Source of the DNA: Rhodococcus sp. P1Y | GTDB taxonomy: Bacteria; Actinomycetota; Actinomycetes; Mycobacteriales; Mycobacteriaceae | Reading direction: 5' to 3' | NCBI RefSeq assembly: GCF_003641205.1 | Contig: NZ_CP032762.1 | Location: 3,286,001 to 3,350,000 of the forward strand | DNA length: 64,000 bases | Part shown: one piece after another, positions 6,458 to 25,272 of the stretch | How the letters are laid out: each line of letters begins with the position of its first letter | Position numbering within the stretch: the stretch's first letter is position 1 | The notes under the pieces: generated by a model | Databases searched by the model: none | Seen by the model: the letters and a program-made list of their open reading frames with translations, nothing else | What the model was told of the DNA's origin: nothing | Program-made: the position numbers and the translations under genes

Positions 6458-8194
6458 GTGGCCCACCTCGAACTGACCGATATCGACTACTTCCTTCCCG
6501 ACGGTAGGCAGCTTCTCAGCGGGGTCGGATTCCGTGTCGGTGACGGTGCCAAGGCCGCGCTGATCGGGCCGAACGGGACCGGAAAGACGACCCTCACGCG
6601 GATCGTCGCGGGCGATATCACTCCCGACGACGGTGCCGTCACACGGTCCGGTCAGCTTGGGGTGATGCGCCAGTTCGTGGGGCAATTACGTGACGATTCG
6701 ACGGTCCTCGACCTTCTACTGTCGGTGTCCTCACCCGCGGTACGCACTGCCGCGAAGGCTCTCGACGAGGCCGAAAATGCAATGATCGAGGCGGACGACG
6801 AAAAGACGCAGCTCGGGTATGCAGCGGCACTGTCGGACTGGGGAGACATCGGCGGATACGACCTCGAACCGTTCTGGGACAAGGTGACGATGTCAGCGCT
6901 TGGAATGCCGTTCGACACCGCAAAATGGCGTGCTGCAGCAACGTTGAGCGGTGGTGAACAGAAGCGGGTGGTGCTCGAAGCGCTGTTCGCAGGCACGGAC
7001 CAACTGCTCCTTCTGGACGAGCCCGACAACTACCTCGACGTCCCCGGAAAGCGTTGGCTGGAGAAGACCATTCGCGAGTCCGACAAATCGGTGCTGTTCA
7101 TCAGCCACGACCGCGAACTCATTGCCAATGCGGCTACCCGCATCGTGACCCTCGAACCAGGTGCCAGTGGAGCTACGTCCTGGGTGCACGGAGCTGCGTT
7201 CGACACCTACTACGACGCACGGTCCGATCGCAACGCTCGCCTGGACGAACTGCGACGTCGATGGGACGAGGAGCGCGTCAAGTTGCGCGCGCTCGTGCTG
7301 CGACTTCGCGAGAAGGCGAAGTTCAACGACGGTGTCGCAGCGCGCTATCACGCAGCACAAACCCGTCTCGCGCGATTCGAGGACGTGGGACCGCCCGAGG
7401 CCGTACCGCTGACGCAGAACGTGACGGTTCGCCTGCACGGCGGACGCACCGCCAAGCGGGCGCTCGTGTGCACGGAGCTGGAGCTGACCGGTTTGATGAA
7501 GCCCTTCGGCACCGAAATCTGGTTCGGCGACCGCGTCGCGGTCCTCGGATCCAACGGTTCGGGGAAATCGCATTTCCTCAGGCTGCTCGCGGGAGGCGGA
7601 ACCGACCCCGAACGTGAACACCAGCCCGTACAGGAACTCGCGATCGACCCGGTCCCGCATGGCGGCAAGGCGGTATTGGGGGCGCGTGTGCGCCCGGGGT
7701 TGTTCGCGCAGACCCATACTCGTCCCGACCTCAACGGTAAGACGCTGCTCGACATTCTTCACCTCGGTAACGAGCACCGGGACGGCATGGGCCGCGAAGC
7801 AGCAAGCCGAGCTCTCGATCGTTATGGGCTGTCCTTGTCGGCGGAGCAGGTCTACGACAATCTGTCCGGCGGACAGCAGGCTCGTCTTCAGATCCTCCTG
7901 CTCGAACTGTCCGGTGCAACGTTGCTTCTTCTCGACGAGCCCACCGACAACCTGGACCTGCTGTCCGCTGACGCCTTGCAGGACGCGATCGCGGCATTCG
8001 AGGGAACCGTCGTCGCGGTCACCCACGACCGTTGGTTCGCGCGCAGTTTCGACCGGTTTCTCGTATTCGGATCGGACGGACAGGTCTACGAATCGGCTGA
8101 GCCGGTATGGGACGAAAACCGCGTCAGGCGCGAGCGGAGCGGGCGGAGTGACCCGAAATTGCGCGAGCGGAGCCTGCGGAGTGACCCGAAATAG
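6458..8194 (+). CDS. ABC-F family ATPase (tandem ATP-binding domains, no membrane part)
   Basis: The 578-aa protein has two nucleotide-binding domains. The first has Walker [10 protein letters not shown], signature LSGGEQKRV and Walker B LLLLDEPDNYLD. The second has GSNGSGKSH, LSGGQQARL and LLLLDEPTDNLD. A charged linker joins them, and there are no membrane segments. ABC-F proteins usually act on ribosomes, either as translation factors or as antibiotic-resistance proteins; which applies here is not visible. The start is a GTG 15 bases after the phosphatase stop. The last 22 residues are two copies of an 11-residue repeat (RERSxRSDPK type) made by a 33-bp tandem repeat, so this tail looks recently added. 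Confidence 0.92.
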   Translation: MAHLELTDIDYFLPDGRQLLSGVGFRVGDGAKAALIGPNGTGKTTLTRIVAGDITPDDGAVTRSGQLGVMRQFVGQLRDDSTVLDLLLSVSSPAVRTAAKALDEAENAMIEADDEKTQLGYAAALSDWGDIGGYDLEPFWDKVTMSALGMPFDTAKWRAAATLSGGEQKRVVLEALFAGTDQLLLLDEPDNYLDVPGKRWLEKTIRESDKSVLFISHDRELIANAATRIVTLEPGASGATSWVHGAAFDTYYDARSDRNARLDELRRRWDEERVKLRALVLRLREKAKFNDGVAARYHAAQTRLARFEDVGPPEAVPLTQNVTVRLHGGRTAKRALVCTELELTGLMKPFGTEIWFGDRVAVLGSNGSGKSHFLRLLAGGGTDPEREHQPVQELAIDPVPHGGKAVLGARVRPGLFAQTHTRPDLNGKTLLDILHLGNEHRDGMGREAASRALDRYGLSLSAEQVYDNLSGGQQARLQILLLELSGATLLLLDEPTDNLDLLSADALQDAIAAFEGTVVAVTHDRWFARSFDRFLVFGSDGQVYESAEPVWDENRVRRERSGRSDPKLRERSLRSDPK

Positions 8195-8292
8195 CACGAG
8201 CGGAGCCTGCGGAGTGACCCGAAATAGCGCGAGCGGAGCCTGCGGAGTGACCCGAAATAGCACGAGCGGAGCCTGCGGAGTGACCCGATCTT
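8128..8292 (+). repeat. 33-bp tandem repeat, five copies, crossing a stop codon
   Basis: Five head-to-tail 33-bp units occupy 8128-8160, 8161-8193, 8194-8226, 8227-8259 and 8260-8292. They share the core cgagcggagc and gcggagtgaccc. Copy 1 ends aaattg in frame (Lys-Leu) while copies 2-4 end aaatag, so the ABC-F gene terminates at the boundary of copy 2. The array stops 24 bases before the cysG-type start. One T-to-A change per unit decides whether the frame continues. Confidence 0.96.
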
Positions 8293-9560: not shown

Positions 9561-11063
9561 GTGCCTGATTCCACGCAGCCCACAGCGGCGTCAACCCAGA
9601 TCGTCTATCCGGTGACGACCAGGGCGTTCGGTCTCGCCATCATCGTTCTCAGCGGATTGCAGCTGATGGTGGTGCTCGACGGCACCGTCGCCAACCTGGC
9701 GCTCGCACCTCTGCAGGCCGATCTGGGATTGAGCGACGCTGGGCGCAACTGGGTGCTCACGTCGTACGCGTTGGCATTCGGCGGACTGATGCTGCTCGGG
9801 GGCAGGCTGGGCGACGCGTTCGGACGAAAGAAGATGTTCCTCGGCGGGGTAGTGCTGTTCACGGTTGCGTCGCTGCTGTGCGGTCTCGCAGTCAACGAAG
9901 CCACGCTGGTAGCTGCACGCGCTCTGCAAGGCGTCGGTGCCGCGGTGGCGTCGCCGACGGCGTTTGCCCTCGTCGCAACGACGTTCGCGCCGGGCCCGGT
10001 CAGAAACCAGGCAATCGCGATCTACGCCGCGATGACAGGGGTCGGTTCGATTGCCGGGTTGATCATCGGCGGTGCTTTGACGCAGGTCTCCTGGCGGTGG
10101 ATCTTCCTCATCAACGTGCCTATTGGCATCGTGATCGTCATTCTGGCGGTGGTGTCGCTGAAGGAAACGGCAGGCGTTCGACTCGCGCTCGACTTTCCCG
10201 GAGCGATACTGGGCACCCTCGGATGCACGGGCGTCGTCCTCGCGTTGAGCGAGGGAACCGAACTGGGATGGCTCAGCCCACTGGTCATCGGCTCACTCGT
10301 CGCAGGTCTCGTGCTGCTCGGGTTGTTCCTGGTCGTCGAGCGCAGGGCCGAGAATCCGCTGCTCCCGTTCTCGCTGTTCTCCAGCAGAGATCGTGTCGCA
10401 ACGTTCGTGGCGATTTTCTTCGCGGGCGGTGTGATGTTCTGTCTTGCAGCCTTCGTCGCGCTGTTCGTCCAGGACATTCTGGGATACAGCCCGCTCGCGG
10501 CGGGTCTTGCCTTCGTCCCGTTCGCCTTCGGACTCGGGGCAGCGGCATTCATCACATCGCAGCTGGTGGTTCGGATTCAACCCCGCTGGCTGGTCATGGC
10601 CGGTGCGGTCATCATGTTCGGTTGGCTGTTGTTCTCGGTCGCGACGATGGACGCGGATTCGTCGTACTTCCCCGGGATTTTCTTCCCGGTCATCGGAATC
10701 GGCTTCGGTGTGGGGATGGCGTCGATTCCGCTGCCTCTGTGCGCGATCGCGGGGGTTCCGGCGACCGAGATCGGGCCGTTGACTGCAATTTCACTCGTTG
10801 CGCAAACCCTGGGCGGTCCGGTCGCACTGGCAATCGTCGGAGCACTCGTCACCTCGCGCACGCTGTCGCTCGGCGGGACGACGGGGCCGGCGACGTTGAT
10901 GAACGACACCCAGCTCGACGCCCTGAGTTCGGGATACATGTTCGCGCTGTTCTGCTGCGCAATACTCGCCGTGGTGGCGGGAATCGCGGCCTTCTTCATC
11001 AGGTTCACGGCGTCGCAGGTTGCTCAGGCCCAGGCCGCACAAGAAGACGCTCAATCGGCTTAG
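9561..11063 (+). CDS. efpA: EfpA-type MFS exporter (14-helix DHA2 family)
   Basis: The 500-aa membrane protein has about 14 predicted helices. MFS motif A appears as GGRLGDAFGRKK and the EmrB/QacA-type motif as SWRWIFLINVPIG. The segments SDAGRNWVLTSY and LGGTTGPATLMND are close to what I recall of M. tuberculosis EfpA, and the neighbour order (cysG-efpA) is the same as Rv2847c-Rv2846c. EfpA-type exporters are linked to drug efflux and possibly lipid export. The GTG start lies 11 bases after cysG. The stop overlaps the convergent mgtE stop by 4 bases, with no room for a separate terminator. Confidence 0.9.
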   Translation: MPDSTQPTAASTQIVYPVTTRAFGLAIIVLSGLQLMVVLDGTVANLALAPLQADLGLSDAGRNWVLTSYALAFGGLMLLGGRLGDAFGRKKMFLGGVVLFTVASLLCGLAVNEATLVAARALQGVGAAVASPTAFALVATTFAPGPVRNQAIAIYAAMTGVGSIAGLIIGGALTQVSWRWIFLINVPIGIVIVILAVVSLKETAGVRLALDFPGAILGTLGCTGVVLALSEGTELGWLSPLVIGSLVAGLVLLGLFLVVERRAENPLLPFSLFSSRDRVATFVAIFFAGGVMFCLAAFVALFVQDILGYSPLAAGLAFVPFAFGLGAAAFITSQLVVRIQPRWLVMAGAVIMFGWLLFSVATMDADSSYFPGIFFPVIGIGFGVGMASIPLPLCAIAGVPATEIGPLTAISLVAQTLGGPVALAIVGALVTSRTLSLGGTTGPATLMNDTQLDALSSGYMFALFCCAILAVVAGIAAFFIRFTASQVAQAQAAQEDAQSA

Positions 11064-12415
11064 ACGCCGAGAACGAGCTTTGCGATTGCAAAGTAGACGA
11101 TCAGACCCGTTGCATCGCAGAAGGTCGAGATGAACGGAGTCGAGAACACCGCGGGATCGACGCCGATCCTTTTGGCCAACAGGGGCATAGCGCCGCCGAC
11201 TGTGGCGGCGAGCGTGCAGATCGCGAGCAACGTCGAGCCGATGACGGTCCCCAGTCGCCAGTCGTAGACGAGACCGGCAATGACGAACCCGAGTGAGCCG
11301 AGCATCAGGCCCATCGTCGCGCCCACGCGTACCTCGCGGAACAGAACAGCTGCAATATCGCGCGGGCGTACGTCGCCGACGGCGAGCGCGCGGGTGACGG
11401 TGGTCGCAGCCTGAGACCCGGTGTTTCCGCCGGTTCCGGTGAGCAACGGAATGAACAGCGCAAGCGTCACCACCGCGGCGAGTGCATGTTCGAAAATCTC
11501 GAGGACCTGAACCGTCAGAATCGCCGACAGCGCCAGCACGAGAAGCCAGACCACTCGCGATCGGACGATAGCCAGCACAGGCGTCGAGAGATACGGCCTG
11601 CGCAGGGGCTCGCTTCCACCCGCCCTCGCCGCGTCTTCGTCCTCGGCTTCCTCGATGATGCGCGACGCCTGCTCTATGGTGAGAATTCCGATCAACCGAT
11701 ATTCCGAATCGACTACAACCACTGCGGGACTTCGATTTTCAAGGCACATACGAGCGGCAGCCTCGGCGTCGACGTCGGCGGTGACGACAGGTCTGGTTGT
11801 CGCGAGGTCCCCGATGAGGGTCGAAGGATCGGCCATCGCCACATCGGCAAGTGTCGCGACCCCTACCAGGCGTCGGCTCTCGTCGGTGATCGGCAGGAGG
11901 TAGACCGATTCGGCGTCGGCCCCCGTTGCCCGGACCCGAGCGAGAGCCTGGGATGCGGTCGTGTCTGCACTGACGCCGATGTACTCCGGGCTCATTCGAC
12001 GTCCGGTGGATCCCTTCGCATACCCCAGCATGGGAGCGGTCAAGGCGCGTTCGGTTGCCGACAACCCCTGCATCAGGCGGCGAGCGACATTCGACGGCAA
12101 CTCGTCGACGAGTTCGACTCTGTCGTCGGGATCCAAATCCTCGAACAATGTGATGACGTCGTCGTCACGCAGGCTCTCGAAGAGCTCGCCCCGAACCGAC
12201 GCGTCGAACTGTTCGAACACCTCCAGGGCTTGGTCTTTGGGGAGCAGTCGATACAGCACGGCACGCTCGGCGGAGTCCGCCCGCCCGAGTATTCGCGCGG
12301 CGTCGGCAGGAGACAATCCTGCGACCAGATCGGACATACCAGCCAGATCCTTGTTCTGGAGCAGTTCTGTTGCGCGGGCGATCGTGTCGTCGAGAGTGTG
12401 GTGCACGGTTCCCAT
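11060..12415 (-). CDS. mgtE: Magnesium transporter MgtE
   Basis: The 451-aa protein contains an N-terminal MgtE superhelical domain (repeated short helices, about residues 10-115), a tandem CBS pair (about 120-250) and a C-terminal domain of five membrane helices. The pore-lining signature is PLLTGTGGNTGSQAATT. MgtE is a Mg2+ channel gated by Mg2+ binding to the cytosolic domains. I chose the ATG at 12415 (MGTVHHTLDD); an upstream in-frame start would add a short basic stretch unlike the family. It converges with efpA, sharing 4 bases at the stops. Confidence 0.93.
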   Translation of the reverse strand: MGTVHHTLDDTIARATELLQNKDLAGMSDLVAGLSPADAARILGRADSAERAVLYRLLPKDQALEVFEQFDASVRGELFESLRDDDVITLFEDLDPDDRVELVDELPSNVARRLMQGLSATERALTAPMLGYAKGSTGRRMSPEYIGVSADTTASQALARVRATGADAESVYLLPITDESRRLVGVATLADVAMADPSTLIGDLATTRPVVTADVDAEAAARMCLENRSPAVVVVDSEYRLIGILTIEQASRIIEEAEDEDAARAGGSEPLRRPYLSTPVLAIVRSRVVWLLVLALSAILTVQVLEIFEHALAAVVTLALFIPLLTGTGGNTGSQAATTVTRALAVGDVRPRDIAAVLFREVRVGATMGLMLGSLGFVIAGLVYDWRLGTVIGSTLLAICTLAATVGGAMPLLAKRIGVDPAVFSTPFISTFCDATGLIVYFAIAKLVLGV

Positions 12416-12434: not shown

Positions 12435-12508
12435 TGAGTTTGCCGACGAATTGTTCGTTTGCGCACCATGCCCGGTCGGCAAACGAACAGCTCGTCGGCA
12501 AACGAGTG
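12435..12508. repeat. Palindromic element, left copy (74-nt direct repeat with hairpin)
   Basis: Aligned without gaps to 13504-13577, it is 59/74 identical. Inside lies an inverted repeat: arms 12442-12462 and 12479-12499 (21 nt each, 19 paired) around a 16-nt loop starting gcacca. The core is GTTCGTTTGC pairing with GCAAACGAAC. It sits between the divergent mgtE and AbiEi-like genes, so it cannot simply be a terminator of either. Confidence 0.93.
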
Positions 12509-12603
12509 GCACGACCGTACGGGTATTCATCCACAGGGGGCGTGTCCATCCCCAGATTTGCTTCGGGGCCGAATTTGCCTGCGCTTCGGTGGATATTCGA
12601 GTC

Positions 12604-13506
12604 ATGCACCCCGACTCCGATGGATTGATGACACGCGCTGCGCTCCTGGCAATGGGATATACGGACACCGACCTGCAACGATTGTGTGCGGCTGAAGAAT
12701 TGAATCGGATGATGCCGGGAATCTATGTGAAGCGTGAGCTGCTCGATTCCCTGGACGCGCGGCAGAAGCACCGACTCGCGACGATTGCGACGCTGCGGGT
12801 AAATGCCGCGGATGCCGTCGCCAGTCATGTGTCGGCTGCCGTTCTGCACGGACTCGACATGTGGGACACACGCCTCGACCGGGTGCATCTTACAATTCCC
12901 GGAGGCCACGGCAGAACGAATGCGGGCCTGCACGTTCACACCACGGCGTTGCCCGAAAACCTCGTGACGACGGCGGACGACATTCGAATGACGACGTTGG
13001 ACCGGACGGTGTGCGATTGCGCGCGCATTCTGGATCTCGATCATGCTGTTGTGCTCGGAGATTCGGCACTGCGGTCGAAAAATGTGTCGATGGACCATCT
13101 GCGTGCTGCAGTCGAGGCGTCCGCGCGACTCGGGGGGATCGGAGCCGCAAGGCGGGCGGTGGACAGGATGAACGGGCTCAGTGAGAGCCCGGGTGAGTCG
13201 ATCAGCAGACTGAGAATGGCGGAGTTCGGTATGCCGGAACCTGTTCTCCAGCAGGTGCTCAGGAGCGGTGAGAGGTTTCTTGCTCGGGTGGACTTCTACT
13301 GGAGGCGATGGCGGATTGCGGGCGAGTTCGACGGGATGGGTAAGTACGACGATCGCGCAGTGGTCACGAAGGAGAAGATTCGGGAGGACGACATGCGTGA
13401 TCACGGCCTCGAGGTGATCCGTTGGGGATGGAAGGATTTGTGGGATTTCGGACGGGTTCGAGACAAATTCGACCGGGCCCGGCTACGGGCGGAGCGGCGG
13501 AGGTGA
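12604..13506 (+). CDS. AbiEi-type antitoxin-domain protein with C-terminal DUF559/Vsr-like nuclease fold
   Basis: The 300-aa protein starts at an ATG (MHPDSDGLMTRAALL); an in-frame ATG nine codons later is possible. The N-terminal part (LLAMGYTDTDLQRLCAAEEL, MMPGIYVKRE) is the winged-helix AbiEi-antitoxin type, and the middle (VASHVSAAVLHGLDMWD, TTLDRTVCDCAR) fits the same family. The last 70 residues look like a DUF559 restriction-endonuclease-like fold: RVDFYW (Asp about 230), AGEFDGMGKYD (Glu about 241, Asp about 243), then KEKIREDDMRDHGLEVIRWGW. No AbiEii toxin gene is adjacent, so classical toxin-antitoxin function is doubtful. The gene is enclosed by the two palindromic repeats; its TGA stop is the first three bases of the right copy. 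Confidence 0.75.
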   Translation: MHPDSDGLMTRAALLAMGYTDTDLQRLCAAEELNRMMPGIYVKRELLDSLDARQKHRLATIATLRVNAADAVASHVSAAVLHGLDMWDTRLDRVHLTIPGGHGRTNAGLHVHTTALPENLVTTADDIRMTTLDRTVCDCARILDLDHAVVLGDSALRSKNVSMDHLRAAVEASARLGGIGAARRAVDRMNGLSESPGESISRLRMAEFGMPEPVLQQVLRSGERFLARVDFYWRRWRIAGEFDGMGKYDDRAVVTKEKIREDDMRDHGLEVIRWGWKDLWDFGRVRDKFDRARLRAERRR

Positions 13507-13577
13507 GTCTTCCGACGAATTATTTGTTTGCGCACCAGGTCCGGTTGGCAAATGAATAACCTGTCGGGAAACTAATG
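13504..13577. repeat. Palindromic element, right copy (74-nt direct repeat with hairpin)
   Basis: This second copy lies 1069 bases after the left one. Arms 13511-13531 and 13548-13568 give 15 Watson-Crick pairs, four G-T pairs and two mismatches around a loop of the same 16-nt length beginning gcacca. Several differences from the left copy keep pairing (a G-C becomes A-T; C-G and G-C become wobble pairs). It spans the gap between the convergent stops of the AbiEi-like and DUF2786 genes, so a bidirectional terminator role is possible for this copy only. Confidence 0.92.
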
Positions 13578-14795
13578 CAGTTGGGCCTCATCAGCCGCCG
13601 CGTGACCGGACTCCCACCCTTCGGCGTCGAGTCGCGGTCCGCGCATGGTCCGCACGCGAGGAAAGAGCCGGTCGAATTCTTCCTCGACGGCGACGGTTTG
13701 TGCAGCGAGCATGGGGAGGAGATCGCCGGACCGTTCGGCTGCCACGTCGAGGGTGTCGGCGTCGGCGTCAGCGAGGCGTTCGCCGATCCGCACGGCGTAT
13801 GCGAACAGAAACGCCTTGCCGAAGGCAGCCGACGCGGAGCCTTTGCGGCGCTTCGCTTTCGGTGAACGGGACAATGCGCGAGTCGCTTGGATCAGCAGCG
13901 ACGTGAACAGGATCTCGGTGTTCTCCACGTCGACGGGGGAGCCCACCAGAGTAGCGATGGCGAACTCCGGATCCCAGATGCTCTTGACGCGGTTCACGGT
14001 ACTGACGGCATGCAGCAACTGCGCTTTCGCGGGCGCATGTGGATTGTCGACGTGCAGGCGCCTCGACTCGACGTCGACGTTGCCCTCGGTGAGCAACAGA
14101 GAATCTATCGAATACCGCGTCATCAATTCCTGCGCTTTCGCGGTGAGGGTATCCGCCTCCTCCTCGAAATCTGTGGCATCGGCCTTGGCGAGCAGTCCGC
14201 GAATCCTACTGAGCACCTTCGCATTCGGTGATTCGGCCGGCGCGGCAGGACGTGACGAACTCTGCATGCGCCGATTCGGCCACTGGGATGGAAATGGACC
14301 GATCTTCGGCCAACGCGGCAGTCGCTGCCATTGTCCGAGCAGCGAGAGGACGGCTGTCCACTGGTCGCTGGCGCCGATGTAGTCCGACTTTCCACTCGCG
14401 CTCAGCAGTGCCGCGAGAAAACTGGGCGACGCGTCCACGCGCGATGCTGCCTTCGGATAGGCAGTGCAGATTTCCGACAACTGCTCGATCCAGCTCTCGG
14501 GGGCGCGTTCGGCGGCGTTCGTCAAGTCCGATTGGTGCAGGATGGCGGCTGCGGCGAGGGAGGACACCGCGACGGTCGAACCGCGTCGAACGATGTGCAG
14601 TAGGTCGAGCGGTTGCCAGCCACCCTCGTACATGGTCTGGATCATGTTGGTCAGGGCGAGCGATCCGAGAGCGAGAGCGTCGTACTCCTCCGACGCAATC
14701 AACCGATCCGTGACCTCGTCGACGGTTCGGAGGTCTTTGTCTCGGCCGAACGAGGCGTCCGCGCCTCGGCGCAACAATCCCGGGACCGGGTTCAT
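13572..14795 (-). CDS. DUF2786-domain protein
   Basis: The 407-aa protein starts at ATG 14795 and shares an ATGA overlap with the yaaA stop; the longer open frame upstream is a shadow of yaaA. A DUF2786 segment lies in the middle (KVLSRIRGLLAKADAT, EEADTLTAKAQELMTRYSID), a small helical domain of unknown role. The N-terminal 200 residues (LASEEYDALAL-like helices, MIQTMYEGGWQPLDL) are predicted helical and not recognised by me. An acidic-to-basic C-terminal half follows. Coupling to yaaA suggests a shared function, perhaps in stress response (inference). Confidence 0.78.
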   Translation of the reverse strand: MNPVPGLLRRGADASFGRDKDLRTVDEVTDRLIASEEYDALALGSLALTNMIQTMYEGGWQPLDLLHIVRRGSTVAVSSLAAAAILHQSDLTNAAERAPESWIEQLSEICTAYPKAASRVDASPSFLAALLSASGKSDYIGASDQWTAVLSLLGQWQRLPRWPKIGPFPSQWPNRRMQSSSRPAAPAESPNAKVLSRIRGLLAKADATDFEEEADTLTAKAQELMTRYSIDSLLLTEGNVDVESRRLHVDNPHAPAKAQLLHAVSTVNRVKSIWDPEFAIATLVGSPVDVENTEILFTSLLIQATRALSRSPKAKRRKGSASAAFGKAFLFAYAVRIGERLADADADTLDVAAERSGDLLPMLAAQTVAVEEEFDRLFPRVRTMRGPRLDAEGWESGHAAADEAQLH

Positions 14796-15544
14796 TCGGT
14801 CAGCACGATCAGCTCGGTGGGCGAGGCGACCTCGACACGCAGGCCTGCTTTCGATGCGACGCGTGCCAACGATCTGACGTCTTTCGGTTCGGCCGTGGTG
14901 AGTGTCAGAGCTCGGGCGAGCAGACCTTTGTGGTGCTTGTTGAAATGACTGACCACCGATCTGCTGCCGTCCGGCTTTTCGGTCAGCACAGTCGCGGTCA
15001 CAGCTCCTGGCACCGGGCCGTGCTGCTGATAGGTTCCCGACCGCAGGTCGACGACGAGTCCGTCCGCTTCGGCGGCGAGCGCGTCGCTCAATTCCGGTTT
15101 CCAATGTGATCGCAGTGTGCCAAAACCAGGCAAGGTCGAACCACCGGACAACCGATACGACGGGACGGGGTCGTACGCGCGTACCGCGCCGAAGAGAGCA
15201 GAGCCGATCCACAGTCGTGCGGCGGCGCGGGCGCGGCCTGCCTTGGTGAACATGCGTGCGTTCAACGCGTCGTAGAGAACTCCCGTGTAGCGATCGAGCG
15301 CCGGCGCGGTCGGCGAACTCCACAGGGCGAGGTTCCGCTCGATTTCGCCTGTCTGGGTCGGACCGAGGCCGAGAGCTTTGCTCGAGGCGTCGACGTCGTC
15401 GGCGAGTTCGACAAGGGCGTCCGCCAGCTTCTGACGAAGCGGGTTCAACCCCGGCAGCGACAGTTTCTCCAGATCGAGCGGAGATCCCTCGCCGCCGTCT
15501 GACTTCGTTTCGGAGGGCGGAAGCAGGATGAGCACGGGGAGCAA
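14792..15544 (-). CDS. yaaA: YaaA family peroxide-stress protein (DUF328)
   Basis: The 250-aa protein has the family hallmarks [15 protein letters not shown] at the start and [17 protein letters not shown] near the end, with [12 protein letters not shown] and [11 protein letters not shown] between. In Escherichia coli YaaA lowers intracellular iron-driven damage under peroxide stress and binds DNA through a helix-hairpin-helix-like fold. The gene is transcribed away from proS and overlaps the DUF2786 gene by ATGA. A 39-bp gap to proS must hold promoters or leaders for both directions. Confidence 0.9.
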
Positions 15545-22362: not shown

Positions 22363-25272
22363 GTGGCAGGCAAGGCCCGCGTGCACGAGTTGGCAAAAGA
22401 ACTCGGTGTCACCAGTAAGGAACTACTCGCACGGCTCAAAGAGCAAGGCGAGTTCGTCAAATCAGCATCGTCCACCGTCGAAGCGCCGGTAGCGCGTCGA
22501 CTGCGTGAATCGTTCCCGTCCGAGAAGTCGGACTCCGGATCCGACAACGGCCGTCCGAGCGACAGCACACCCAAGCCGAGCACGGGTGCCAAGCCCGGTG
22601 GACCGCGACCAGGCCCCAAGCCTGCTGCGCGCCCCACCCCGGCAGCCCCGGCCGCGACCACTCCGGTGGAACCCGCAGCACCGGCACCGGCAGCACCCGC
22701 GGAGCCTGTGGCGCCCGCCGCTGAGGCGCCGGCACCGTCGCGTCCGACTCCTGCACCGGCTCGCCCGGCTGCACCAGCAGAGCCTGCTGCGGACGAAGCA
22801 ACTCCGGCACAGCCGGCCGCATCTGCTTCGCCTGCACCCGCAGGCCCCAAGCCAGGCGCACCAGGACCGAAGCCCGGTCCCAAGGCGCCTCGTGTCGGCA
22901 ACAATCCATACTCCTCGGCCCCGACCGAGCGTCCCGCTCCGCGTCCGGCACCGGGCAGCCCCCGCCCAGGCGGTGCCGGTCGTCCGGCTCCAGGCCAAAG
23001 CGGAGCACGTCCGGCAGCGGCTCAGGGCGGTACCGGTCGTCCGGCTCCGGGTCAGGGCGGCCCTCGCCCGGCTCCGGGTCAGGGTGGACCTCGTCCGAGC
23101 CCCGGCTCGATGCCTCCTCGTCCGAACCCAGGTGCAATGCCGACTCGTTCGGCGCGCCCGGGACCGGCTGCAGGTCGCCCCGGTCGCCCAGGCGGCGCAC
23201 CGGGTGGACGCCCAGGTGGCGGCGCCGGTGGTGGCGGAGGCTACCGCGGTGGCGGTGCCCCGGGAGCTCCAGGTGGAGCACCGGCAGGCGGCGCACCCGC
23301 AGGTGGATTCCGCGGTCGTCCCGGCGGCGGTGGCCGTCCGGGCCAGCGCGGCGCAGCGGCAGGTGCATTCGGTCGTCCCGGCGGCGCTGTCCGTCGTGGC
23401 CGCAAGTCGAAGCGGGCGAAACGCGCCGAGTACGAAAGCATGCAGGCTCCCGCAGTCGGCGGCGTCAGGCTGCCCCGCGGCAACGGTGAGACCATCCGTC
23501 TCGCTCGCGGCGCATCGCTGTCGGACTTCGCGGACAAGATCGACGCCAACCCGGCTGCACTCGTTCAGGCACTGTTCAATCTCGGCGAGATGGTGACGGC
23601 AACTCAGTCGGTCAACGACGAGACGCTGGAACTGCTCGGCGGCGAGATGAACTACGTCGTGCAGGTCGTCAGTCCCGAGGACGAGGATCGCGAGCTGCTC
23701 GACAGCTTCGATCTCACCTACGGCGAGGACGCAGGCGGCGAGGAAGACCTCGAACAGCGCCCGCCTGTGGTCACGGTCATGGGTCACGTCGACCACGGCA
23801 AGACCAGATTGCTGGACTCGATCCGCAACACTGCAGTTCGCGAAGGCGAAGCAGGTGGCATCACCCAGCACATCGGTGCTTACCAGGTGCTGACCGAGCT
23901 CGAGGGCAATGAGCGTCTCGTGACGTTCATCGACACCCCCGGTCACGAGGCCTTCACGGCCATGCGTGCTCGTGGTGCCAAGGCCACCGACCTCGCGATC
24001 CTGGTCGTTGCCGCGGACGACGGCGTCATGCCGCAGACGGTGGAAGCGATCAACCACGCTCAGGCAGCTGACGTTCCGATCGTGGTTGCGGTCAACAAGA
24101 TCGACAAGGAAGGCGCGAACCCGGACAAGATCCGGCAGCAGCTGACCGAATACGGTCTCGTGGCCGAGGAGTACGGCGGCGACACGATGTTCGTCGACAT
24201 CTCCGCCAAGCAGGGCACCAACATCGATGCCCTTCTCGAAGCGGTGCTGTTGACCGCGGATGCCTCGTTGGATCTGCGCGCCAACCCGGACATGGACGCT
24301 CAGGGTGTTGCCATCGAGGCTCACCTCGACCGCGGTCGTGGACCAGTGGCCACTGTGCTCATCGCCCGCGGAACGCTGCGAGTCGGTGACTCGATCGTCG
24401 CCGGAGACGCCTACGGACGAGTTCGTCGAATGGTCGACGAGCATGGCGAAGACGTCACCGAAGCGCTGCCGTCGCGTCCGGTGCAGGTCATCGGTTTCAC
24501 TTCGGTACCGGGTGCAGGCGACAACCTGCTCGTGGTCGACGAGGACCGGATCGCCCGCCAGATCGCCGATCGACGCAACGCACGCAAGCGCAACGCGCTC
24601 GCCGCGAAGAGTCGCAAGCGCATCAGCCTCGATGATCTCGATGCAGCTCTGAAGGAGACTTCGCAGCTGAACTTGATCCTCAAGGGTGACAACTCGGGAA
24701 CCGTCGAAGCGCTCGAAGAGGCTCTGCTCGGTATCCAGATCGACGACGAGGTCGAGTTGCGCGTCATCGACCGCGGTGTCGGTGGCGTCACGGAGACCAA
24801 CGTCAACCTGGCGTCGGCATCCAATGCGATCATCATCGGCTTCAACGTTCGCGCGGAGGGCAAAGCCACCGAGCTCGCCAACCGCGAGGGCGTCGACATC
24901 CGGTACTACTCGGTGATCTACCAGGCGATCGACGAGATCGAGAAGGCCCTCAAGGGCATGCTCAAGCCGGTCTACGAAGAGGTCGCTCTCGGCCAGGCCG
25001 AGATCCGTGCTCTGTTCCGTTCCTCCAAGGTCGGAAACATCGCCGGTTGCCTCGTCACCTCCGGTACGATCCGTCGCAATGCCAAGGCGCGACTACTGCG
25101 TGACAACACAGTGGTTGCCGAGACCGTCACGATCTCCTCGCTTCGCCGCGAGAAGGACGACGCGGTCGAGGTTCGCGAAGGATACGAGTGCGGTCTCACC
25201 GTCACGTACTCGGATATCAAGGTCGGCGACGTCATCGAGGCGTACGAGCTCCGTGAGAAGCCGCGCGACTGA
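22363..25272 (+). CDS. infB: Translation initiation factor IF-2
   Basis: The 969-aa GTPase delivers fMet-tRNA to the 30S subunit. The start is a GTG ([16 protein letters not shown]) after AGGAGAG at 22354-22360; the GTG at 22351 would consume that ribosome-binding site. An IF2_N domain (residues 1-50) is followed by a very long Pro/Ala/Gly-rich linker (about 60-345), a basic patch ([17 protein letters not shown]), a second IF2_N, then the G domain with GHVDHGKT (about 475), DTPGHEAF and NKID, and domains II-IV. The linker's low complexity explains the long spurious frames on both strands here. Confidence 0.97.

Follow-up and report, generated by a model that had tools for sequence, protein, structure and literature searches.

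Paired palindromic repeats around an AbiEi/Vsr-like nuclease gene in Rhodococcus sp. P1Y suggest a family of single-gene mobile units

Introduction

Why is a nuclease-like gene in the chromosome of Rhodococcus sp. P1Y enclosed by two similar palindromes, and do the gene and the palindromes travel together? The gene is found in a stretch of 64,000 nucleotides (nt) of contig NZ_CP032762.1 (positions 3,286,001 to 3,350,000 of the forward strand, assembly GCF_003641205.1), which is referred to below as the window and to which all coordinates refer. An initial annotation, made from the letters alone, proposed that gene and repeats may form a single-gene mobile unit, in which the protein would relate to the palindromes as transposases of the RAYT type relate to repetitive extragenic palindromic (REP) elements.

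Mobile elements of bacteria use a few enzyme classes, i.e., DDE and HUH enzymes, serine and tyrosine recombinases, and RNA-guided systems. The locus described here looks like part of a jumping-DNA system that is run by an enzyme type not known in such a role. We consider it probable that the window harbors a unit belonging to a family of single-gene mobile elements of actinobacteria, with the order palindromic repeat, gene for an AbiEi-type winged helix-turn-helix (wHTH) joined to a Vsr-like nuclease, palindromic repeat.

Results

Repeats and gene in the window

Two ungapped direct repeats of 74 nt, differing at 15 positions (59/74 identical), enclose a 903-base-pair (bp) gene that runs from ATG to TGA (Table 1); recalculation confirmed both the coordinates and the identity given initially. 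The right repeat does begin with the gene's TGA, and its other end overlaps the stop codon (13572-13574) of the convergent DUF2786 gene. Each repeat folds into a hairpin, as had been described, although its size was underestimated: instead of 21-nt arms and a 16-nt loop, the full palindrome spans 66 nt, with 30-nt arms and a 6-nt centre. Of the 27 pairs formed by the folded left copy, eight are altered in the right one; six of these still pair (two changed on both sides, four on one side to or from a G-T wobble) and two are broken, which agrees with the earlier remark that differences between the copies mostly preserve pairing.

At this gene the two flanks have a similarity score of 74; shuffling them in blocks 2000 times gave no score above 31, and the highest value among 47 control genes was 26 (flanks of 220 + 10 and 15 + 150 nt). 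A chance origin of the repeat was rejected on these grounds.

Matched flanks across the gene family

Homologues are found in all 37 genomes of the genus and, at E 1e-15, in 129 of the 246 genomes sampled from the class; that of Rhodococcoides kyotonense KB10 is 75% identical to the window protein. From one genome per species we assembled 81 loci, 53 from the genus and 28 from the class. Left and right flanks were alike, i.e., above the 95% level of the controls and with the same flank lengths, at 40 of the 53 genus loci. With wider flanks, the genus loci comprised 31 direct, 6 inverted and 16 weak cases (score <30), and the class loci 9, 18 and 1, respectively. At 64 of 78 loci a locus's own left-right score exceeded every cross-locus score between proteins of <50% identity (flanks of 260 + 10 and 30 + 200 nt; L020, L041 and L043 omitted), so matching flanks, first seen at the window gene, recur at other homologues. 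These terminal repeats are about 60-110 bp long and diverse in sequence.

The likeness of repeats between loci climbs with protein identity, the median score being 22 below 45%, 94 at 55-70% and 314 above 85% identity (Mantel rho 0.33; 0 of 500 permutations as high). Because gene and repeat are linked, this correlation shows that they travel together rather than that one recognizes the other. On these sequence comparisons the repeat pair is specific to the gene lineage and the boundaries of the unit lie at the repeats.

Covariation of the arms, indicated initially by the two window copies, extends to a set of 13 window-type palindromes (66 columns, gapless), where 84.9% of cells pair, compared with at most 41.5% when the partner is slid, and where 37 cells carry double changes (20.0 +/- 3.9 in shuffles). 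This pattern fits a folded form and also a symmetric binding site.

In three homologues (L020, L041, L043) stop codons break the reading frame, in keeping with the decay of mobile genes. Three other sites (L031, L045, L059) carry two tandem nuclease genes each, and the L031 pair shares the intervening palindrome.

Presence and absence of the gene at matched sites

Two close species, G004 and G029 (92-96% nucleotide identity over the compared stretches), differ at two sites. Between actP and the SRPBCC gene, the nuclease gene is present in G004 and absent from G029; the filled allele holds two direct copies of a 64-bp palindrome (62/62 shared nt identical), and the other allele exactly one. Between gltA and serC the gene is present in G029 and absent from G004; here a single unit precedes the gene in the filled allele, and two units follow it together with a third, diverged one; of these, the gene-less allele retains the first and the diverged unit. 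Since the gltA-serC gene also occurs in G018, its loss in G004 is the most likely event. An empty site with a single copy, which the initial annotation had envisaged, was thus found at actP-SRPBCC, and a shortened repeat array at gltA-serC.

Broader surveys, each yielding 30 loci from the 37 genomes, found the gltA-serC gene at 8 loci, with 19 short gene-less loci (24-112 bp), the G004 allele and 2 of other kinds, and the actP gene at 4 loci, with the one-repeat allele and 25 loci lacking the gene. At the window's own site an mgtE query matched 18 of the 37 genomes: the gene is present in 2, 12 loci are short and gene-less (10 of them 41-55 bp, below the 66 bp of the palindrome), 3 hold other DNA and 1 is without the neighbouring gene. 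From these comparisons we conclude that the gene has been both gained and lost. Homologues at gltA-serC stand in opposite orientations; given a protein identity of only 47-51%, however, an inversion and two separate insertions are equally likely there.

Opposite orientations also occur in f34, an actinomycete family other than that of the window. Between mshC and the PAC2 gene, the nuclease gene is found in 6 of 12 genomes, in one orientation in four and in the opposite one in two; five lack it and one sequence ends at a contig edge. Two of these units (L098 and L108) encode proteins that are 84% identical and lie in opposite orientation; collinearity of their flanks reaches the terminal repeats and extends into these. 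Judged from these alignments, both orientations occur at one site, and a gene-less allele can retain one repeat.

In most gene-less loci (L166-L193) actP is followed by a terminator-like hairpin (e.g., CCCGTGTGAG...CTCACACGGG); G004 and G029 have a degenerate form of it, which is separated from actP by the nuclease unit or its scar. Other solo palindromes, with TGATCA ends, precede PAC2 in genomes without the nuclease there (L114, L119).

Gene-less doublets

The f34 terminal repeat matched 57, 41, 40, 40, 35 and 33 times in six of 20 genomes, 1-11 times in five and not at all in nine (counts include the unit's own flanks; 40 candidates were scored per genome). Among the 150 matches listed, all 26 close pairs (<400 bp) are outward-inverted, one of them overlapping itself; 17 are from G101, 5 from G119, 4 from G135 and none from the other four genomes listed. 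Distinct complete doublets number 21 (88-335 bp), some of which are alleles of one site, with the same ends as the nuclease unit (GGAATGATCACGTTCACCAC and its complement). Their lengths recur: 88 (four), 159 (two), 170, 191-192 (nine), 202 (two), 212, 295 and 335 bp.

Twelve doublet sites were sought in five congeneric genomes, and 19 selected comparisons are considered here. Thirteen are free of the element, covering 9 of the 12 sites; the remaining six show other sequence or variants (e.g., an 88-90 bp form or half a unit), and the L256 site is without a comparable allele. Seven congeneric genomes with the mshC-site nuclease (G202 assigned by its mshC flank) hold 3-57 repeat matches, and five without it hold 0, 0, 0, 0 and 3; these five carry other homologues, G192 having a related unit elsewhere (L105). 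The alignments show that a unit, or a gene-less repeat pair, carried by one species can be missing from the corresponding site of a relative; by this comparison, the repeats are mobile.

In five G101 doublets (L246, L248, L250, L253, L255) the same 50-bp sequence (TCTCTGTCAGGGTTCTGCTACC...) directly follows the GTGATC of the terminal repeat at the right end, and its starts lie near contig edges; this is probably another insertion sequence that targets the f34 terminal repeat. The G119 allele of doublet site L243 (L297) holds a different palindrome, with TTGATCA ends.

Dispersed palindromes in the genus of the window

Palindromes pooled from 15 loci gave 108, 59, 58, 38 and 34 matches in G010, G006, G018, G003 and G000, respectively, the last figure being that of the window genome, and 6-19 in five other genomes of the genus (one palindrome may count on both strands). 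These dispersed copies are single or in tandem rather than inverted doublets. They resemble the flanks of particular nuclease genes: G010 copies have mean scores of 152/132 against the G010/G028 flanks and 88/82 against those of G018/G006; G006 copies 145/137 against G006/G018 and 97/82 against G010/G028; and G018 copies 156/163 against G018/G006 and 87/81 against G010 and G028. For 33 copies the best flank match was in the same genome in 19 cases, in a genome of the same type in 13 and otherwise in 1; these were hand-picked among the matches listed, mostly of the commonest type there, which favours like matching like. Palindromes are found again at other places, whether the gene is there or not, and their type goes with the gene lineage.

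Solo palindromes of the window type occur once in its own genome and twice in G003; no nuclease gene lies closer than about 1.5 kb to any of them. The possibility that the window palindrome is a high-copy REP of its genome was rejected because of this one solo copy, which adjoins a YdeI-like gene (a neighbour without a close orthologue in the genus, the best match being 48%).

A second, 25-bp palindrome resembling GTGACCGAATGANNCATTCGGTCAC occurs in 18 of the 33 dispersed-palindrome loci (L337-L369; four mismatches allowed, no control), and in G006 some dispersed copies lie about 109 bp apart.

The protein

In the 300-residue protein, a winged-helix antitoxin fold of the AbiEi type is followed by a nuclease fold of the Vsr/I-Bth0305I type. 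Its N-terminus matches AbiEi of PADLOC (E=4.9e-20), as the initial annotation had it. The C-terminus is Vsr-like by structure, with the homing endonuclease I-Bth0305I as the closest fold; of the label "DUF559/Vsr-like" used earlier, the second part thus holds, while Pfam DUF559 gives no match to the window protein and matches 8 of 77 aligned members. The alignment comprises 77 of the 81 loci (L020, L041, L043 and L105 were omitted because of stops or a short frame). In it, E198 is invariant, D230, E241, D243 and K247 are conserved at >=90%, and there is no HxH motif among the columns conserved at >=90%. Pfam matches of the 77 members (E 1e-3) were confined to AbiEi_4, DUF559, MTES_1575 and AbiEi_1, with neither a Y1 nor a DDE transposase family among them.

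Neighbourhood of the unit

The window gene adjoins mgtE and a DUF2786 gene, consistent with the earlier remark that a partner toxin is lacking. There is no tRNA gene in the window and no Rfam match in it at gathering score. Away from the unit, a 33-bp tandem repeat (4.9 copies, 95% matches, 8128-8288) lies at the 3' end of an open reading frame that presumably encodes an ABC-F ATPase, and overlapping 27- and 57-bp tandem repeats are found at 22969-23148.

Table 1. Features of the nuclease unit and its neighbours in the window
Feature	Position	Strand	Remarks
Left repeat	12435..12508	+	upstream of nuclease gene; imperfect 66-nt palindrome 12438-12503, 30-nt arms
Leader	12509..12603	+	left repeat to start codon; presumed promoter, from position only
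AbiEi-wHTH + Vsr-like nuclease gene	12604..13506	+	300 aa
5' part of nuclease gene	12604..13173	+	
Vsr / I-Bth0305I-type nuclease fold	13174..13503	+	residues 191-300
Right repeat	13504..13577	+	direct, 80% identical; starts at the stop codon of the gene; palindrome 13507-13572
mgtE	11060..12415	-	left neighbour, outside unit; flank for empty-site comparison
DUF2786 protein gene	13572..14864	-	right neighbour, outside unit; putative 5' limit

Discussion

A mobile unit and its possible mechanism

From the above, the matched flanks, gene-less alleles, covarying arms and lineage-following palindromes support the initial proposal of a single-gene mobile unit in which protein and palindromes are related much as in REP/RAYT systems. 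We infer that the nuclease is what moves the repeats. In the mechanism that we propose, the AbiEi-type winged helix would bind the terminal repeat; AbiEi and Rv2827c do bind inverted repeats, as described in part of PMC7319586. The Vsr-like domain would then nick or cut the repeat, which might be extruded as a hairpin, and the gene and, in trans, gene-less doublets would move through repair or reinsertion, as proposed for RAYT/TnpA-REP and REPINs. Nucleases of the Vsr-like kind hydrolyse DNA and none is known to join it, so the joining step would probably proceed via host replication or recombination. Such host-dependent joining could also account for one-repeat scars, inversions and homogenised repeats.

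Several observations weigh against this interpretation. Binding, cutting or movement of a repeat by the protein is a prediction from sequence comparison, and gene conversion could likewise make left and right repeats alike with no action of the enzyme. The flank pattern is not universal: at 14 of 78 loci the own pair does not exceed all cross-locus pairs, the 16 weak genus loci have already been mentioned, and alongside filled sites there are many gene-free ones that could not accommodate a palindrome. The doublets belong to another actinomycete family, not to the genus of the window, where the window palindrome is low-copy in its own genome (two flanking copies and one solo). Target-site duplications of >=5 bp accompany none of the 21 doublets (4 bp in 2/21), and the ends are not base-precise because the flanks have diverged by roughly 5-17%. 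Furthermore, G192 harbors a related nuclease elsewhere (L105), yet has no match to the f34 repeat query. Finally, carriage by phages or plasmids was considered and set aside: the gene is in no phage record (E 1e-5) and rare on plasmids (5 of 72,556 records), from which movement seems to occur mostly within chromosomes.

Alternative explanations

The palindromes could instead be operators for the AbiEi-type winged helix, the downstream copy being incidental or a terminator. AbiEi and Rv2827c autoregulate through inverted repeats in their own promoters (according to part of PMC7319586), the left palindrome precedes the gene, and symmetric binding sites could covary as well. As the whole explanation, we nevertheless consider autoregulation improbable, since it leaves unexplained why most loci have a second, matching copy that coincides with or follows the stop codon, nor does it explain outward-inverted gene-less doublets at many loci and their presence or absence; it may well be true in addition to mobility.

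In a homing scheme, the nuclease would cut a repeat-bearing gene-less allele and the gene would be copied in by recombination between repeats, which would be older and have spread otherwise. The I-Bth0305I-like fold and the gene-less allele with one repeat agree with this scheme, but gene-bearing alleles keep two repeats and would presumably remain targets, and repeat type and gene lineage are associated, which makes homing unlikely in our judgement. Still harder to accept is that the repeats are miniature inverted-repeat transposable elements (MITEs) or REPs moved by an unrelated transposase, with the nuclease gene as cargo or a trapped defence gene. The connection between protein and movement is not direct, and AbiE genes are classed as phage defence (as in the PADLOC match). 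However, the nuclease gene would have to be a recurrent cargo, at 64 of 78 loci and within many unrelated repeat sequences, and among the matches listed (G119 and six G101 contigs with at least three) the sole neighbouring pair 400-5000 bp apart flanks the nuclease. We regard this passenger role as very unlikely.

Significance

Returning to the mobile unit, we lean slightly toward a new class of mobile element whose sole enzyme, an AbiEi-wHTH with a nuclease of the Vsr/homing-endonuclease type, moves itself and doublets while the host joins the DNA, and which is REPtron-like by convergence. If so, a Vsr-like nuclease as the only enzyme would add a class to the known mobile elements, an abundant orphan gene family (129 of 246 sampled class genomes) would acquire a role, and dispersed palindromes in actinobacterial genomes would be explained. 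In that case, many orphan genes annotated as "AbiEi antitoxin" in actinobacteria would be transposase-like genes rather than antitoxins. AbiEi proteins of a Rhodococcus are named among toxin-antitoxin genes in part of PMC12915292. In the portion of the open-access PMC literature covered, we found no link of the AbiEi/Vsr-like family to palindromic flanks.

Comparison with known systems

The AbiE type IV toxin-antitoxin system shares the AbiEi antitoxin fold with the window protein, which differs in its fused nuclease domain and the lack of an AbiEii toxin gene beside it. With I-Bth0305I and Vsr it has in common the nuclease fold and conserved acidic residues, but the DNA-binding part is another one and a repeat is retained on both sides of the gene. 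Recombination-promoting nucleases (Rpn/PDDEXK_2) are of the PD-(D/E)XK type and are linked with DNA mobility; to our knowledge, they have no palindromic terminal repeats or MITEs.

Among mobile elements, DDE insertion sequences differ in their transposase, which has no counterpart in the Pfam matches of the family. The doublets are MITE-like in that they are short, gene-less elements sharing terminal inverted repeats with the nuclease unit and lacking from alleles at 9 of 12 sites, but differ in the missing target-site duplications (0/21 at >=5 bp). IS200/IS605 elements also have palindromes at both ends of one transposase gene (PMC8266576, in part); there the enzyme has another fold, and the repeats here are about 60-110 bp long and diverse.

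The closest parallels are enzyme genes that travel with repeats of their own. In TIRtrons, as described in part of PMC3733652, the TIRYT gene lies between terminal inverted repeats that are long and in some cases self-complementary, and further copies occur elsewhere singly, as dimers or in groups; TIRYTs retain the HUH motif and catalytic tyrosine that are absent from the AbiEi/Vsr-like family. REPtrons (PMC3116915 and PMC8266576, both in part) consist of a single enzyme gene, RAYT or TnpA-REP, bordered by palindromes, with dispersed inverted doublets and repeats specific to the enzyme lineage; REPIN-like doublets are seen here in three of the seven listed f34 genomes, not in the genus of the window. 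Where REPtrons use a HUH motif and a catalytic tyrosine, the present units have an AbiEi-wHTH and a Vsr-like nuclease. Lacking the HUH transposase fold, the unit would work like a REPtron or TIRtron yet not be one, and, if it does so, the question of how REP/RAYT palindromes spread without classical transposition becomes testable in an independent system.
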